A stretch of 21,002 nt of DNA, taken from positions 1 to 21,002 of the IMG/VR virus record IMGVR_UViG_3300048694_000540. One strand, written 5' to 3'. The stretch comes from a virus. Under the pieces are notes generated by a model that did not search any database, was not told the origin of the DNA, and was given only the letters and a program-made list of their open reading frames with translations. Positions within the stretch are counted from its first letter, which is position 1. Every line of letters begins with the position of its first letter. The position numbers and the translations under genes are program-made. Positions 1,233 to 18,123 of this stretch are shown here, one piece after another.

Positions 1233-1457
1233 TCAGGCCGCACGATTTGCGGCAAACCGATAGAACATTGTCCTCTTACCATCTACATTGCGATAATTGC
1301 TGTAGATGACACGACCTTCACGACTGCGAAGGTCATGAACCCGCTTATGAACATTTGCCAAAGGCACTCCAGCAATAACAGCAAGCCGAGCAGGAGTAAT
1401 ACCTGCGCCAGTGGTGTTACGACGAAGATGCTTGGCGACACGAGTAAGTTGGGACAT
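1233..1457 (-). CDS. Small winged-helix DNA-binding protein, hypothetical
   Basis: A 74-aa basic protein (predicted, no signal peptide or membrane segment). Residues about 18-45 (GAGITPARLAVIAGVPLANV and following) look like a helix-turn-helix: a helix, a tight turn at AGVP, and a recognition helix NVHKRVHDLRSREG. Then comes a beta-hairpin wing, VIYSNYRNVDGKRTMFYRF. ATG 1457 has a GGAG 7 nt upstream. The gene sits between two terminators: one at 1490-1532 at the end of the AAA+ gene and one just after its own stop. It either depends on read-through or has a promoter I did not find. It could regulate the neighbouring AAA+/VWA genes, whose leaders contain long inverted repeats, but nothing in the sequence proves this. 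Confidence 0.7.
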   Translation of the reverse strand: MSQLTRVAKHLRRNTTGAGITPARLAVIAGVPLANVHKRVHDLRSREGRVIYSNYRNVDGKRTMFYRFAANRAA

Positions 1458-1489
1458 ATAGTTTCTCCATAAAAAATGTCACACTTCAC

Positions 1490-1532
1490 AAAAACCTGGT
1501 GGTAATGCCGTGACAATTACATCACCACCAGG
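1490..1532 (-). terminator. Terminator hairpin after the AAA+ ATPase gene
   Basis: Minus-strand arms at 1520-1532 (CCTGGTGGTGATG) and 1495-1507 (CATTACCACCAGG) pair over 13 bp with a single G-U wobble. The loop is 12 nt and five Ts follow immediately. It begins 6 nt beyond the ATPase stop. The loop is unusually long for an intrinsic terminator, and hairpins with 11-12-nt loops also occur at the two preceding junctions of this module. Confidence 0.72.
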
Positions 1533-1538
1533 GTTCAC

Positions 1539-2717
1539 TTAGAACTGGACATCAGCCGTTGATGCTCCTTCAGGAGCAGCAGGCGGGTTGATAGTTTCAT
1601 CCAGCTTCTTATACAAATCCATAAAAGAGTTCTTGGTATCAGTGTCAAAGCGATTAAGACAAAGTTGAATAGCCTTTTCACGGTTCTTACCGAAGATAGC
1701 AAAAGCTTCGCAAATATGAACCAGACGCCGAGTTGAAATGATTTCAGATACAGCACCTTCAAGGAAGGACTTACGGATCACTTCAGCCCAATCGACCAAC
1801 CGCTTAACAAAGTCGGGGTCTTCCACATTGACCGACTTGAGAACATTCGTCAAAATCTTCATTTCGACCTTGTTCTGAGGATATTCTTGTTCCATAGTAA
1901 CAGAGAAACGCTCAAGGAAAGCTTCGTTCATAACATTGGTACCAATGAAACGACCGTCATCAGAGCCCTTACCCTTGGTGTTAGCCGTGGCAATGATAGT
2001 GAATCCTTGAGTGGGTGTAATAAGCTTGTTGATCTTTTTAAGGAAAACCGGCTTACCTTCAAGTACAGGCTGAAGACACATAAGCTTGTTGGAGCCAAGG
2101 TCGACCTCGTCCAAAAGAAGGACAGCACCACGCTCCATGGCATGAATGACTGGACCATTCTGCCAAACGGTACGACCATCGACCAGTCGGAAACCACCAA
2201 GGAGGTCATCTTCGTCCGTTTCGATGGTGATATTGACACGGATGCATTCACGCTTTTCAACAGCACAAACTTGTTCGACCATCATGGTTTTACCGTTACC
2301 AGAAAGACCGGTCACATATACGGGATAAAACCGCTTTGACGAAATAATAGAACGGACATCAGAAAAATGTCCGAATGGTACATAACCAGGAGCCTTAGAC
2401 GGAATCAAAGACACCTGGTCGGGCATGTCAATCTTAACAGCAGCTACCGCCATATCAGCTACATGCATATCAGGAGCCGGTGCAGCCGGAGCCACATGCT
2501 TAGTCTTAACCTTAGGCTTGGGCATATCAAGCCCGGCGAGACTGTACAGACCACGACCGACACGGCGGTCGGCATCATTCGTCAACCACTGAGGAATCTT
2601 AATGTCAAATTCCTCACACACTTCGACAATTTGCTGTCGGCTGATTTCGGTAATTGAACCGAACTTATCAGCGACGGCGGCGAGGAACACAGAGCGATCA
2701 AGAACCTTAGGCATCAT
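1539..2717 (-). CDS. CobS/MoxR-like AAA+ ATPase
   Basis: A 392-aa protein. The N-terminal part (about 1-65) resembles a small DNA- or partner-binding domain. A Pro/Ala-rich linker (about 66-108) leads to an AAA+ domain: Walker A GLSGNGKT (137-144), Walker B LLLDEVD (200-206), sensor 1 ATANT (243-247) and an arginine-finger-like ERF (269-271). This is the CobS/MoxR type of AAA+ protein, whose members work with VWA-domain partners to remodel proteins or insert metals. Its partner is very probably the VWA protein encoded just upstream. Phage copies are often labelled cobS, but nothing else here points to cobalamin synthesis. The start is one of two adjacent ATGs behind GGAG (2717 or 2714). The gene has its own strong sigma70-like promoter and is GC-rich compared with the phage background. 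Confidence 0.88.
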   Translation of the reverse strand: MMPKVLDRSVFLAAVADKFGSITEISRQQIVEVCEEFDIKIPQWLTNDADRRVGRGLYSLAGLDMPKPKVKTKHVAPAAPAPDMHVADMAVAAVKIDMPDQVSLIPSKAPGYVPFGHFSDVRSIISSKRFYPVYVTGLSGNGKTMMVEQVCAVEKRECIRVNITIETDEDDLLGGFRLVDGRTVWQNGPVIHAMERGAVLLLDEVDLGSNKLMCLQPVLEGKPVFLKKINKLITPTQGFTIIATANTKGKGSDDGRFIGTNVMNEAFLERFSVTMEQEYPQNKVEMKILTNVLKSVNVEDPDFVKRLVDWAEVIRKSFLEGAVSEIISTRRLVHICEAFAIFGKNREKAIQLCLNRFDTDTKNSFMDLYKKLDETINPPAAPEGASTADVQF

Positions 2718-2741
2718 TTATCTCCAATTTGATTGTGATAC

Positions 2742-2770
2742 ATCATACATGATTGGCAGAGAAAAGTCAA
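2742..2770 (-). promoter_or_regulatory. Sigma70-like promoter for the AAA+ ATPase gene
   Basis: On the minus strand TTGACT (2770-2765) is followed after exactly 17 nt by TATGAT (2747-2742). The predicted start lies about 15-20 nt before the ATG. Each hexamer matches consensus at five of six positions. The -35 box directly abuts the inverted repeat at 2771-2812. Confidence 0.75.
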
Positions 2771-2812
2771 TTGGAACCAGAGAAATTTTATTGCTTTTTT
2801 CTCTGGTTCCAA
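2771..2812. repeat. Perfect 15-bp inverted repeat with 12-nt loop between VWA and AAA+ genes
   Basis: Arms 2771-2785 (TTGGAACCAGAGAAA) and 2798-2812 are exact reverse complements with a 12-nt centre. It lies 16 nt beyond the VWA stop and touches the -35 box of the next promoter. There is no clean T-run after it on either strand: the minus strand continues TTGACTTTT. It could be a weak terminator, an RNA-processing or stability hairpin, or an operator. Confidence 0.7.
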
Positions 2813-2828
2813 GAAATAATTTTCTCTT

Positions 2829-5033
2829 TTAATATGAAGCATTTGCTACACGGGTAATGAACTTGGTAAGCATGATACGATTGATACTTTTGCGATCCGA
2901 GAACTTCATAAAGGTCTTGGTGATCTGGTTTTTGGTCATGTTGTTATTCACAACTAAATCATCAATAGTCCTTTGACGAACAACACGGACGATATAGTAC
3001 TCATCATATCCAGCACTTTCAACAGCCGCAAACTGGTTATCTTTCCAGCACTTGCGAGTTTCTTCATTGTTTACAACGGAATCATCAATGATACGCGAAC
3101 TAACAAGATGATTAAGCTGTGAACCCTGATATAGATAGAAACCAACCAAATTACAACCAGTGCGATCCTTGAGAATACGGAGGAATGTAGAAGTCATTCC
3201 ATAGTAAAGGTCATTTAGCCAATAGGTTTTCTTGGTAACTTCGTCACGGATAATATACTTATTACCATTTTTCTTTTTTGGCGAAGAAACCGAACTATTG
3301 TGAGCACAAGGATCAGAACCACCGTCCGTAAGGAAGATGGTGTTCACCACTTGCAACTTATTCTTGTTGCGAAAATCATTGACAATCTTATCCGCAGCAA
3401 GGATCGTCTGGTTCAAAGGAGTTGAGTCCATACGGTCACAACGAAACATTTGACGATTTGCTGCCATCCACAACAACTCATAAGCTTTCTGCAAGGTGCC
3501 AACATTCATCCTAGAAGAAAGAATGTTCCTGATCTTAAAAGCACCAATAAAGTTGACCGTCGTGTTATCACCAACAACTTGTTGCGGTGATGCATGATTT
3601 TGGTAATGAGTGCGGAACAGGTATACTTCAAAAGGAATATTAACACGCTTACAGAACATGGTCAGCGAAAACAGTTGCTTCATTGTATAATCAAGGTTCT
3701 GTGTCATCGACCCTGACCAGTCGAGGAACATAATAAAGCCATGGTTCTTACCCTTAGGTATAACCGTGACCTTCTTAAAAATATCTTCCGTGAACTTATA
3801 CTGCGGAAGCTTGTTGGTATTGATAACACCAGTCTTAGCCGTTGCAATACGGGCATAAGCATCAGCCGACTTACGCATCTCAAATTCTTTGACCATAAAG
3901 GAAATGGTGTCGGATTCTTTGCGACGCCATTCTGCCAATCTAGCCATCAGAACAGCAAAGTTTTGACGAGTAAGATTGTGATCAAGCAATTCTTTTTCCA
4001 TGTCAGCCATGACAACTGTATAATCATCGATAATTGCATCATGGTTCAGCTTAGGAACATTACGATAGATATAATTAACATCGTTATCCATGACAATCTT
4101 GGACATGGATTCTTCATATGCTTCCTGAGTTTCCGACTTTAATTCATCGGAATCATCATTCTTCTTTTCGAGTTTCGAGACCTCGACCTCTTCATCATCA
4201 CTTTCCTGAACATCATCACTTTCCTGAACATCATCACCCTCATTTTCGCCTTCTTCATCATCAGAACCGTTTGAGGAAGCTTCGGTGTCGTCTTCATCCT
4301 CCTGATCAAGATCATCCTGATCATTATCGGAATCAGCGGCATCCATATCTTCATCAGAGTCTTCCGATTCTTCGGACGATTGATCAGCAAGCTTTTCTTC
4401 TTTTTGCTTTTCATTCTTAGCCTTGGCATAGCCATAAAGCTCGTCAGTCAAAGCAACCACATCCTCGAAAGTTTCCGTGTTTTCCATACGACGGATAAAA
4501 GCACGTTCTTCTGGCGTAAATTTAATATAAATGCCAGTAGACTTAAAGTAGATGTTAGCACGGTCCATAAACGAAAGCCCGTTAACATCCTTGTTTTGGA
4601 TTCCAAAGAAATCCATGTCGTTCAATTCCTTGTAACCAATCGCATAGTTGCGCTTGGAACCAGGATAACGACGCTTTTGAAGCTTATCAATACGAGCATC
4701 TTCCACAATGTTAAGAAAACCCTTGATGGTCATCAGAACATTATCAGACGGTTTGCGGTCATTGTGATACTTGAAGGAAATGTCGGTGATAGCGGTCAAC
4801 CACTTTTCGGCAGGCGTGTCAAGGGCATGCCCGACTTCGTGGACAACCAACATGTCATACAGGTCTTCCGAGATGTTCTGCCATACAGGCAAAACAAGGA
4901 CACGGCTGTCGGTATCAAAAGATGCGGTTTTAGCACCAGGTTCATGGTACATAGTAATATTCTCAGTGGCCAGAAGTTTAGCCAACTGGTTCTTGACCTC
5001 GAAAGAAATTGCTTGATTGCCTGTGGCGCTCAT
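2829..5033 (-). CDS. CobT-like VWA-domain protein with an HExxH metalloprotease-like domain
   Basis: A 734-aa protein counted from ATG 5033, which has GGAG 6 nt upstream. A longer reading from TTG 5063 is less likely. Residues 1-200 hold HEVGHALD (zinc ligands H65 and H69, catalytic E66) and a downstream VEDARIDKL (about 110-118) that could give the third ligand. Residues 203-310 are an extremely acidic linker. Residues about 420-640 form a VWA domain with a complete MIDAS: DWSGS (D438, S440, S442), T538 and D570. As I recall, CobT proteins share the order N-domain, acidic linker, VWA, and a segment resembling VEDARIDKL, but are not known for HExxH. With the adjacent CobS/MoxR-like ATPase it probably forms a chaperone- or protease-like complex. 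The substrate is unknown. Confidence 0.85.
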   Translation of the reverse strand: MSATGNQAISFEVKNQLAKLLATENITMYHEPGAKTASFDTDSRVLVLPVWQNISEDLYDMLVVHEVGHALDTPAEKWLTAITDISFKYHNDRKPSDNVLMTIKGFLNIVEDARIDKLQKRRYPGSKRNYAIGYKELNDMDFFGIQNKDVNGLSFMDRANIYFKSTGIYIKFTPEERAFIRRMENTETFEDVVALTDELYGYAKAKNEKQKEEKLADQSSEESEDSDEDMDAADSDNDQDDLDQEDEDDTEASSNGSDDEEGENEGDDVQESDDVQESDDEEVEVSKLEKKNDDSDELKSETQEAYEESMSKIVMDNDVNYIYRNVPKLNHDAIIDDYTVVMADMEKELLDHNLTRQNFAVLMARLAEWRRKESDTISFMVKEFEMRKSADAYARIATAKTGVINTNKLPQYKFTEDIFKKVTVIPKGKNHGFIMFLDWSGSMTQNLDYTMKQLFSLTMFCKRVNIPFEVYLFRTHYQNHASPQQVVGDNTTVNFIGAFKIRNILSSRMNVGTLQKAYELLWMAANRQMFRCDRMDSTPLNQTILAADKIVNDFRNKNKLQVVNTIFLTDGGSDPCAHNSSVSSPKKKNGNKYIIRDEVTKKTYWLNDLYYGMTSTFLRILKDRTGCNLVGFYLYQGSQLNHLVSSRIIDDSVVNNEETRKCWKDNQFAAVESAGYDEYYIVRVVRQRTIDDLVVNNNMTKNQITKTFMKFSDRKSINRIMLTKFITRVANASY
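4193..4237. repeat. 18-bp tandem repeat, 2.5 copies, inside the acidic linker
   Basis: The unit CATCATCACTTTCCTGAA occurs at 4193-4210 and 4211-4228, with a 9-bp start of a third copy. It encodes repeated DDVQES in the VWA protein linker. The two full copies are identical, which suggests a recent slippage duplication in a stretch with loose sequence constraint. Confidence 0.85.
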
Positions 5034-5062
5034 GTGTGTCTCCGTTTCATCGATTTGAGACA

Positions 5063-5091
5063 ATAATATAGGTGTTGATCGACAAATGCAA
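5063..5091 (-). promoter_or_regulatory. Possible sigma70-like promoter for the VWA gene
   Basis: On the minus strand TTGCAT (5091-5086) and TATTAT (5068-5063) are 17 nt apart, with ATG 5033 about 30 nt downstream of the -10. The -10 is good (five of six), the -35 poor (three of six). Both boxes overlap the inverted repeat at 5065-5101, which would allow repression. Supported by position more than by sequence. Confidence 0.4.
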
Positions 5092-5101
5092 CACCTATAT
5101 T
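5065..5101. repeat. Perfect 13-bp inverted repeat with 11-nt centre in the VWA leader
   Basis: Arm AATATAGGTGTTG (5065-5077) is the exact reverse complement of 5089-5101. The 11-nt centre is ATCGACAAATG. It fills much of the 98-nt gap between the DruA-like gene and the VWA gene and covers the likely -10 region. It is AT-rich at its base and lacks a T-run, so an operator or leader hairpin fits better than a terminator. Confidence 0.75.
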
Positions 5102-5131: not shown

Positions 5132-6385
5132 TTATCGACCAACCTGTTGTAAATACTTGGATTTTGTTTGGTCCCAGGTCATATAGATCAGATCATCATA
5201 GAACAGAGTATCTTTGCTCACCCTATCCTGAGCGACCAGAGACTTTATTCTTTTGGAAGCATATTTGTCTTTCCACAGATCAACCAGATAGGAATATGAA
5301 GTATCAAACGACTTGACCAAATCTTGTTCACCTATTTCACCTCTCAAAAACTCACATGAATTATTATACAGTGGGCTGAAATAGATACCTCTCTGATGAT
5401 TTGATTTGATCAATTCTTTTGGTAGACTCAATCTACTGTAAGTGAAGGTATATGATCTATTTCGATGATCTCTCTTATAAGGCTGACCTGTATCTTTCTT
5501 AGCCTCATACCACTCAAAATATTTTCTTGTGTGATTTCTCATCAACCAAGCTTTGATCATACCGATAGTCTTCTTTGTAGGTTCATATGAAACAGAACCT
5601 TCAGAAAATCCCATCTTCTTCCAATGCTTAAGCCCATCATACTGACTTAGACCGCCCATCTTATTTTTACCATACAGAGATGTGGTTGTCACACCAACCA
5701 ATGTGTCTTTGTATTGTGCTTTCCATTGCTTTTGTACTTCATCAGATAAACACAACAATGCTAAGAGTTTACCTCCAACATAGTTATAACCAAGAGGCTG
5801 TAGAGGCACAATCGTAGACCCAATGGCTGTATAGTTGATCATATGACCTTGTGTTTTCTTAGTTCTATCCCAACCAATGAACTTATCACGAGGAGTCAAG
5901 TCAAGGAAATCAGATGATATACAAATAAGCCCAAGATACTTTTTACTCTTAGCATCAACGACCAAGAAATTTAGGTTACGACCAATATTGGAATTATTCT
6001 TCATCGTAGAAGTGAAATTTCTTATTGTGTTCCATGTGACAGACAACTCAGCTTCTTTAGTATACACCAATTCTGGCTGAAGTTCCATGTAATCATCTGG
6101 GCTCGAAGGTATCCAGATGTTCTTCTTAATTTGGGAAATGAACTTATCTTTTTCCAAATCAAGCATCTGTGTCTCTTCACCAAATAGAGTAGACACCTTA
6201 GATGATGGATATCTTTCTTGTATTTCACACCACTTTTGATAAAGCGTATATTCCTCAACTGTCATCTTGGACACATCTTGTAAGTCTGACATCAAAGATG
6301 ATCTGAGTTGGTCATCTGTAATATTTTCAATGTTCTTAAGAGGATCTGTGTCTAGCCAGTTCTTCCATTGTTCTTCAATGTCCAT
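5132..6385 (-). CDS. DUF4338/DruA-like protein
   Basis: A 417-aa protein. Residues about 136-175 (GRNLNFLVV...YLGLICISSDFLDLTPRDKFIGWD) and the following blocks match what I remember of the DUF4338 family (Pfam DruA): IVPLQPLGYNYVGGKLLALL, VTTTSLYGKNKMGGLSQYDG and HWKKMGFSEG. The family is named from the DruA component of Druantia anti-phage islands, whose biochemical role is not settled. There is no helicase partner like DruE here; it stands alone. It starts 10 nt after the gp46 stop with an AAGG ribosome site, so it is the last gene of the recombination operon. A role in DNA binding or nicking, or as a decoy against host Druantia, is only inference. Confidence 0.65.
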   Translation of the reverse strand: MDIEEQWKNWLDTDPLKNIENITDDQLRSSLMSDLQDVSKMTVEEYTLYQKWCEIQERYPSSKVSTLFGEETQMLDLEKDKFISQIKKNIWIPSSPDDYMELQPELVYTKEAELSVTWNTIRNFTSTMKNNSNIGRNLNFLVVDAKSKKYLGLICISSDFLDLTPRDKFIGWDRTKKTQGHMINYTAIGSTIVPLQPLGYNYVGGKLLALLCLSDEVQKQWKAQYKDTLVGVTTTSLYGKNKMGGLSQYDGLKHWKKMGFSEGSVSYEPTKKTIGMIKAWLMRNHTRKYFEWYEAKKDTGQPYKRDHRNRSYTFTYSRLSLPKELIKSNHQRGIYFSPLYNNSCEFLRGEIGEQDLVKSFDTSYSYLVDLWKDKYASKRIKSLVAQDRVSKDTLFYDDLIYMTWDQTKSKYLQQVGR

Positions 6386-17469: not shown

Positions 17470-18123
17470 TTAAATTTTGCGAATAAAATTCTCGAATAAC
17501 TTTAATGCCGTATCTTCTATTTCTCTGCGGCTTAAAGTCTTAATATGATTTCTTGTGTCTTCTGCTGCCTCAGACATTTTCCAGTTTCCACTTTCATCAT
17601 AAAACCAGTTAACTTTTTCCATAATCCCACGAACAAAAGCGTCTGGTGCTGAAGGATCGGCTACAACATCAGCAGCAGTGGCTAACTTAAAATCATCTTG
17701 AACTAATTGATAACCATTATGTGCTTTCAGAGAACCAACACCACGAGTTGAAACACCTAGATTAGCACCAGAATCAAGTAGCCCTTTAACTATACTACCC
17801 ATTGGAGTATCAACAATTTTTGCTTTACCAATGAAGTTAGATCCATCTGGATGAAGACTTGTTATCATATGAGATACACGATCAAGATTGATGGATGGAG
17901 TATCAGGATGACCTAGCTCTCCATATGCACGATTCTTATTCACGTATTCACGATTATATCTATCAACTTCCCTACTCAAAACATTGAATGGATAAATTCT
18001 TCCATTTCTGTTTTGTTTTTCTGCTTGCATGAAAACACCAGTGATAAAATGTGATTTTTTACCATCTTTGGATTCTTCAACAAGATAACTAATTTCTTCT
18101 ACTTGTTCTTTTATCAACTTCAT
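17470..18123 (-). CDS. 21: gp21 prohead core protease
   Basis: 217 aa (T4 gp21 is 212). A herpesvirus assemblin-like serine protease. The probable catalytic residues are H72 in AYGELGHPDTPS and S125 in LGVSTRGVG; VVADPSAPDAF follows as usual in the family. NRNGRIYPFNVL is another hallmark. It is packaged in the prohead core, activates itself, and cuts gp22, gp23 and internal proteins after (L/I)xE sites before DNA packaging. ATG 18123 lies 3 nt beyond the stop of the basic 81-aa gene. The assignment is secure. Confidence 0.95.
   Translation of the reverse strand: MKLIKEQVEEISYLVEESKDGKKSHFITGVFMQAEKQNRNGRIYPFNVLSREVDRYNREYVNKNRAYGELGHPDTPSINLDRVSHMITSLHPDGSNFIGKAKIVDTPMGSIVKGLLDSGANLGVSTRGVGSLKAHNGYQLVQDDFKLATAADVVADPSAPDAFVRGIMEKVNWFYDESGNWKMSEAAEDTRNHIKTLSRREIEDTALKLFENFIRKI

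Follow-up and report, generated by a model that had tools for sequence, protein, structure and literature searches.

The cobS gene is one of 25 core genes of cyanophages (PMC3037559); it has been counted as a vitamin B12 gene in ocean surveys and its role in B12 synthesis is unsettled (PMC9983427). The cyanophage cobT has been described as mistakenly annotated as a peptidase, and a hijacking of the CobN protein of the host has been proposed (PMC8651126). The architecture in which a zincin-VWA protein is paired with a MoxR ATPase is already known for some jumbo phages, from a MoxR and metallopeptidase-vWA pair in group 2.2, for which a role in virion assembly was proposed (PMC7824862). Here, we have analysed a 21 kb viral fragment from IMG/VR (IMGVR_UViG_3300048694_000540), which in its entire length is referred to as the window and which encodes a pair of this kind. 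In the open-licence literature searched, we did not find the residue-by-residue contrast with cellular CobT, the occurrence in conjugative elements and the recurring replication and recombination context that are described below.

A conserved gene pair in T4-like phages

The PHROG matches of the window include gp46, gp47, gp55, uvsW and gp23, supporting its assignment to a T4-like phage as in the original prediction. On the minus strand, it encodes a protein of 734 residues (2829-5033, phrog_459, ATG start), which an alternative TTG start upstream at 5063 would extend to 744 residues, and a CobS-like AAA+ ATPase of the MoxR clade with 392 residues (1539-2717, phrog_249). The larger protein is composed of a predicted zincin domain (residues ~12-212), an acidic linker (~214-303), a helical region and a VWA domain containing the MIDAS (~430-734). 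The assignment of the ATPase is based on Pfam (AAA_5, E=6.5e-17), PHROG (phrog_249, 'porphyrin biosynthesis', E=3e-117) and its motifs, comprising a Walker A sequence GLSGNGKT (137-144), a Walker B sequence LLLDEVD (200-206), N246 and R330/R331, all of which are invariant or nearly so in 32 homologues, and the protein matches the solved CobS (9ujv) with E about 1e-23. The complete set of AAA+ motifs that had been claimed for this gene is thus found, and the adjacent VWA protein with a full MIDAS would place the ATPase among those members of the MoxR clade that work with a VWA partner. The MIDAS is formed by D438-W-S440-G-S442-M (3705-3722, minus strand) and completed by T538 and D570, with the five residues D438, S440, S442, T538 and D570 shared by all 55 aligned homologues, and the closest structures of the VWA domain are those of NorD (Z 15.8) and the MIDAS domain of midasin (Z 14.5), both of which are partners of AAA+ proteins. 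In the preceding linker (residues 214-303; 4125-4394, minus strand), aspartate and glutamate account for 49% of the residues. This region lacks a confident structure and appears disordered in a model of the full-length protein (mean pLDDT 73.3).

The VWA protein and the ATPase form a conserved pair in the T4-like Kyanoviridae and constitute a real unit, in line with the partnership expected from the initial reading. The ATPase gene is located at most 1.5 kb downstream of the VWA gene in 105 of the 139 testable viral loci in IMG/VR, where the pair is preceded by gp46/47 in 84 of 118 cases and followed by gp45/44 in 90 of 107. The clade counts of phage records are equal for both genes (365 Synechococcus, 61 Cyanophage and 24 Prochlorococcus), and the relatives retrieved are Kyanoviridae that include a Pelagibacter phage infecting SAR11 and an Ochrobactrum phage. 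The pair is borne by nearly all marine T4-like cyanophages. In about 30 viral loci of a side lineage (L099, L101, L107, L120 and others), the VWA gene is found without an adjacent ATPase; a search of five such contigs in their whole length located an ATPase elsewhere in one (87 kb) and none in four fragments of 46-96 kb.

A short gene following the ATPase, which encodes a winged-helix-like protein of 74 residues (1233-1457, minus strand), had been regarded as part of the same module. Of the first 80 loci, 45 contain it, each belonging to a close relative, and S-PM2, HTVC008M and the OC phage lack it. We have rejected it as a component on this distribution, and it is thus probably not part of the module. 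The region between the VWA and ATPase genes contains a perfect inverted repeat of 15 bp (TTGGAACCAGAGAAA / TTTCTCTGGTTCCAA, ~2766-2813), directly followed by a sigma-70-like promoter just upstream of the ATPase gene (TTGACT-17-TATGAT, 2742-2770, minus strand), which shows 10 of 12 matches in a window whose total count of such promoters is only modestly above that of shuffled sequences. The late-promoter core ATAAATA has four matches in the window, none of them within 6 kb of the pair. The site of the promoter and the positions of the late cores provide weak evidence for a putative early or middle expression of the pair; the literature searched gives no transcription timing and the papers found do not name these genes. 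A gene for a DruA-like protein of 417 residues (DUF4338, known from Druantia defence systems; PADLOC E=1.7e-20) at 5132-6385 is placed between gp46 and the VWA gene in the window and in roughly 20 related loci. PADLOC showed no match to the VWA, ATPase or winged-helix genes, and we have discarded a reading of these three as a defence system.

The zincin-like domain and its counterpart in cellular CobT

The N-terminal domain of the 734-residue protein carries the sequence HEVGH at residues 65-69 (4827-4841, minus strand), which would provide two zinc ligands and the catalytic glutamate, and the sequence EDARID at residues 111-116 (4686-4703, minus strand), whose E111 is predicted to act as third ligand. 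All 55 aligned homologues share H65, E66, H69 and E111, and also D112 and R114, and both HExxH and the ED-x-R-(I/V)-(D/E) motif are intact in each of the 148 viral homologues whose N-terminus is complete. Since the motif is kept throughout this set and the protein matches phrog_459 ('peptidase') in a full-length profile alignment (651 bits, E=6.3e-195, residues 10-730), HExxH does not occur by chance. The four putative active site residues are found where the original prediction had placed them, and the full MIDAS and acidic linker that it described are present as well.

When modelled alone, the domain reaches a mean pLDDT of 92.7, and a single helix of the model bears HEVGH while a subsequent one bears E111. 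The highest-scoring structural matches are zincins without exception (ZMPSTE24, Z 7.3; BlaR1, 7.0; Ste24, 6.2), as are the further fold matches to ArdC (Z 6.1), abylysin (5.9) and IrrE (5.6). With middling Z-scores below 8, it is the unanimity of these matches in combination with the motif, rather than the score alone, that supports the predicted zincin fold. A search of a viral structure library matched the domain to further proteins of phages and haloviruses that are named CobT or VWFA, and the absence of a solved CobT chain among the fold matches is uninformative. Searches of the 734-residue protein against Pfam and NCBIfam returned nothing significant, M48 and other Pfam peptidase families gave no significant match to the N-terminal domain among the families listed, and a sequence search of the PDB with the protein or its profile recovered only noise from the acidic linker. 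The conserved HExxH motif with its third ligand and the confident model of a zincin fold (Z 5 to 7.3) support an assignment of the domain to the zincin metallopeptidases. We have high confidence in the architecture of a zincin-VWA protein combined with an AAA+ ATPase, and the protein is more likely to be active as a protease than inactive.

A sample of true cellular CobT was defined by Alphaproteobacteria proteins above the curated CobT cut-off. The window proteins do not reach the cut-offs of either cellular family, with 10.3 bits compared to 759 for TIGR01651 (CobT) and 90.6 bits compared to 558.55 for TIGR01650 (CobS). Whereas the N-terminal domain of the window protein is intact, a merged alignment shows that HExxH is kept in 0 of 32 cellular CobT proteins, where the histidine columns are occupied by A/S and R/K and the column of the catalytic glutamate mostly by I/F/V/Y. 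The glutamate corresponding to E111 is retained in all 32. The relationship between both domains is established in two steps, with a group of mobile-element or ICE-like CobT proteins matching the window domain in a profile comparison (probability 98.4, E=7e-15) and cellular CobT in hhalign (probability 96.3, E=1.6e-9), whereas the direct comparison of the window profile with cellular CobT is weak (probability 17); the acidic linker is common to both. In a tree of 37 proteins, whose root is unplaced, cellular CobT forms one clade (100/100) that is joined to HExxH-bearing phage proteins. Because of this single clade, and with HExxH being the rule in zincins, a single loss of the motif in the cellular line would be the simplest reading. 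The N-terminal domain of cellular CobT is, by its substituted residues, a presumably dead zincin, which offers an evolutionary account of this part of the protein. CobT was found in 42 of 58 sampled genomes of Alphaproteobacteria and the CobN family in 22. CobN is missing from 21 genomes that contain CobT, and likewise from the Caulobacter control. Cellular CobST may thus function in something other than the chelation of cobalt, although some of the sampled genomes may be incomplete.

Relatives in other phages, plasmids and presumed integrated elements

Relatives extend beyond the T4-like phages into plasmids, which were found with the ATPase as query; a plasmid search with CobT of the Ochrobactrum phage gave no matches. 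HExxH is present in nearly all phage and plasmid relatives examined. The pair and its relatives usually reside beside replication or recombination genes, an association that was judged by inspection and that indirectly suggests a link to these processes. In the Kyanoviridae, this neighbourhood represents one inherited synteny. Relatives adjoin uvsX and a primase/helicase in phage DLP6, a DNA polymerase in SSU5, and primase, helicase and polymerase genes in ICP2; a Rhizobium phage, an Acinetobacter element and pAMS5a carry them beside dnaE. Those of conjugative plasmids, IncC among them, are located next to ssb, recT/bet and a lambda-exonuclease, together with DUF3150, and close variants of this arrangement are found in two further loci. 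No replication gene is annotated within 6 kb of the copy in a Gordonia phage.

Several of these proteins depart from the form found in the window. CobT of the Vibrio phage ICP2 (L167:2883-4625), which groups with cellular CobT on a long branch (92/80), retains HECYH and carries a valine in place of the third-ligand glutamate, and a plasmid copy from P. aeruginosa (L228:4875-6608) contains the sequence HEILCH, which corresponds to a one-residue insertion in HExxH and is followed by ED-x-R. In light of both cases, activity may not be universal. In pAMS5a the protein is split, with the HExxH half in a gene of its own that ends in a sigma-like helix-turn-helix and the VWA half encoded next to it (L171:1064-2104 and 2104-3492). 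In conjugative plasmids, the ATPase and VWA genes occur together with DUF3150 (L169:12647-13924), and a DUF3150-like N-terminus, as judged by eye, is encoded upstream of two chromosomal copies with HExxH (L218 and L220), suggesting that these reside in integrated elements. Our literature search found no paper on the function of DUF3150, and the portions of the IncC and SXT papers that were searched contain no description of the pair. The CobN family is absent from all 14 phage, plasmid and viral records carrying the pair or a relative.

Function of the pair and its relation to known systems

The original prediction had disfavoured a plain cobalt chelatase, a view that is supported by a conserved HExxH motif in a zincin-like fold and by the absence of CobN from the 14 elements. 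Two findings that it had named as contrary evidence, HExxH in cellular CobT and chelatase genes elsewhere, did not come up in the 32 aligned CobT proteins and, as regards CobN, in these elements. With its intact partner resembling a zinc protease and its replication and repair neighbours in unrelated phages and plasmids, the pair is more likely an ATP-driven machine that cuts or remodels proteins than a B12 enzyme. As a viral CobST cobaltochelatase, it would cooperate with CobN of the host to insert cobalt and raise the level of cobalamin for nucleotide synthesis. This account draws on the homology between mobile-element and cellular CobT, the shared acidic linker and the match of the ATPase to solved CobS, and a CobN/ChlH-family protein is present in cyanobacterial hosts (Synechococcus elongatus control), where it could be borrowed. 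We nevertheless consider it improbable in view of scores that remain far below the cut-offs and of a motif that is invariant in the window family and gone from cellular CobT. The borrowing of a host CobN would also offer no explanation for the relatives on IncC plasmids in E. coli, which to our knowledge lacks de novo corrin synthesis, and the pair is in addition found in a SAR11 phage. A role as assembly chaperone and peptidase, which folds or trims structural proteins of the virion, would agree with the equivalent domain architecture of the group 2.2 jumbo-phage pair (PMC7824862) and with the frequent processing of virion proteins in phages, but it appears improbable as well, since relatives with intact HExxH are found in conjugative plasmids, which have no virion. 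The location of the pair within a replication cluster, its distance from the late-promoter cores and a gene resembling a T4-type prohead protease elsewhere in the window (17470-18123, recognised by reading rather than by a search) point in the same direction. From the initial proposal of an ATP-driven protease or remodeller acting on a host or virion protein, we thus retain the machine, whereas a virion target has become less likely. The pair might also function as a chaperone only, with the zincin domain binding metal or a peptide without cutting, as in NorQ/NorD or RavA/ViaA. The nearest VWA structures, NorD and midasin, belong to non-proteolytic remodellers, and cellular CobT itself exemplifies a dead zincin; this reading is nonetheless unlikely, since the catalytic E66 stays invariant across a highly divergent set of sequences, and a domain that only binds metal or a peptide would not require this.

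Intact HExxH, absent CobN, plasmid relatives and the neighbouring replication and recombination genes together argue against chelation and a purely virion-related role. We give about even weight, for and against, to the reading of the pair as an ATP-driven remodelling protease of the zincin type, borne by mobile elements and serving the DNA metabolism of the element. In such a machine, the CobS-like protein would form a hexameric ring carrying the VWA protein, whose MIDAS may grip an acidic residue on the target. ATP hydrolysis, relayed via the flexible acidic linker, would pull or open this target and present it to the N-terminal zincin domain for putative cleavage. The most likely targets would be proteins on replicating or recombining DNA, and a target in DNA metabolism is plausible from the gene context. 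As a more tentative and less probable extension, phages, phage-plasmids, conjugative plasmids and ICEs might share a class of metalloproteases resembling SPRTN and Wss1 and powered by a CobS ring, which would strip or cut proteins on replicating or recombining DNA and of which CobT would be a protease-dead cellular offshoot. The conserved H65, E66 and H69 offer a direct handle on the protease reading, and should the partner prove to be an active protease, B12 inferences drawn from cobS of marine cyanophages would be wrong.

The window pair can be compared with several known systems. Its N-terminal domain shares the HExxH helix and the later helix with the third ligand with zincins such as ZMPSTE24/Ste24, BlaR1, ArdC and IrrE, from which it differs by the absence of a significant Pfam peptidase match and by its soluble, VWA-fused form. 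As in NorQ/NorD, an AAA+ ring would be combined with a VWA co-chaperone, and NorD is the best structural match of the VWA domain, although the matched chains cover this part alone and the likeness is limited to it. Midasin (Rea1) is approached by the ATPase, which scores 188 bits against the AAA part of midasin and 112 against CobS. Unlike the two-gene window pair, midasin is a single giant chain, for which we know of no zincin domain. The cobaltochelatase subunits CobS and CobT (TIGR01650/TIGR01651) are homologous in the ATPase and the N-terminal domain and share the acidic linker and VWA domain; they are distinguished by the loss of HExxH in cellular CobT, by the low scores of the window proteins and by the absence of CobN from the 14 elements. 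The group 2.2 jumbo-phage pair (PMC7824862), to which the window pair is likened by description and not by sequence, shows the same domain order and pairing with an ATPase. However, whereas that pair was assigned to virion assembly, the type found in the window belongs to the cyanophage core, has relatives on plasmids and is usually found among replication and recombination genes.
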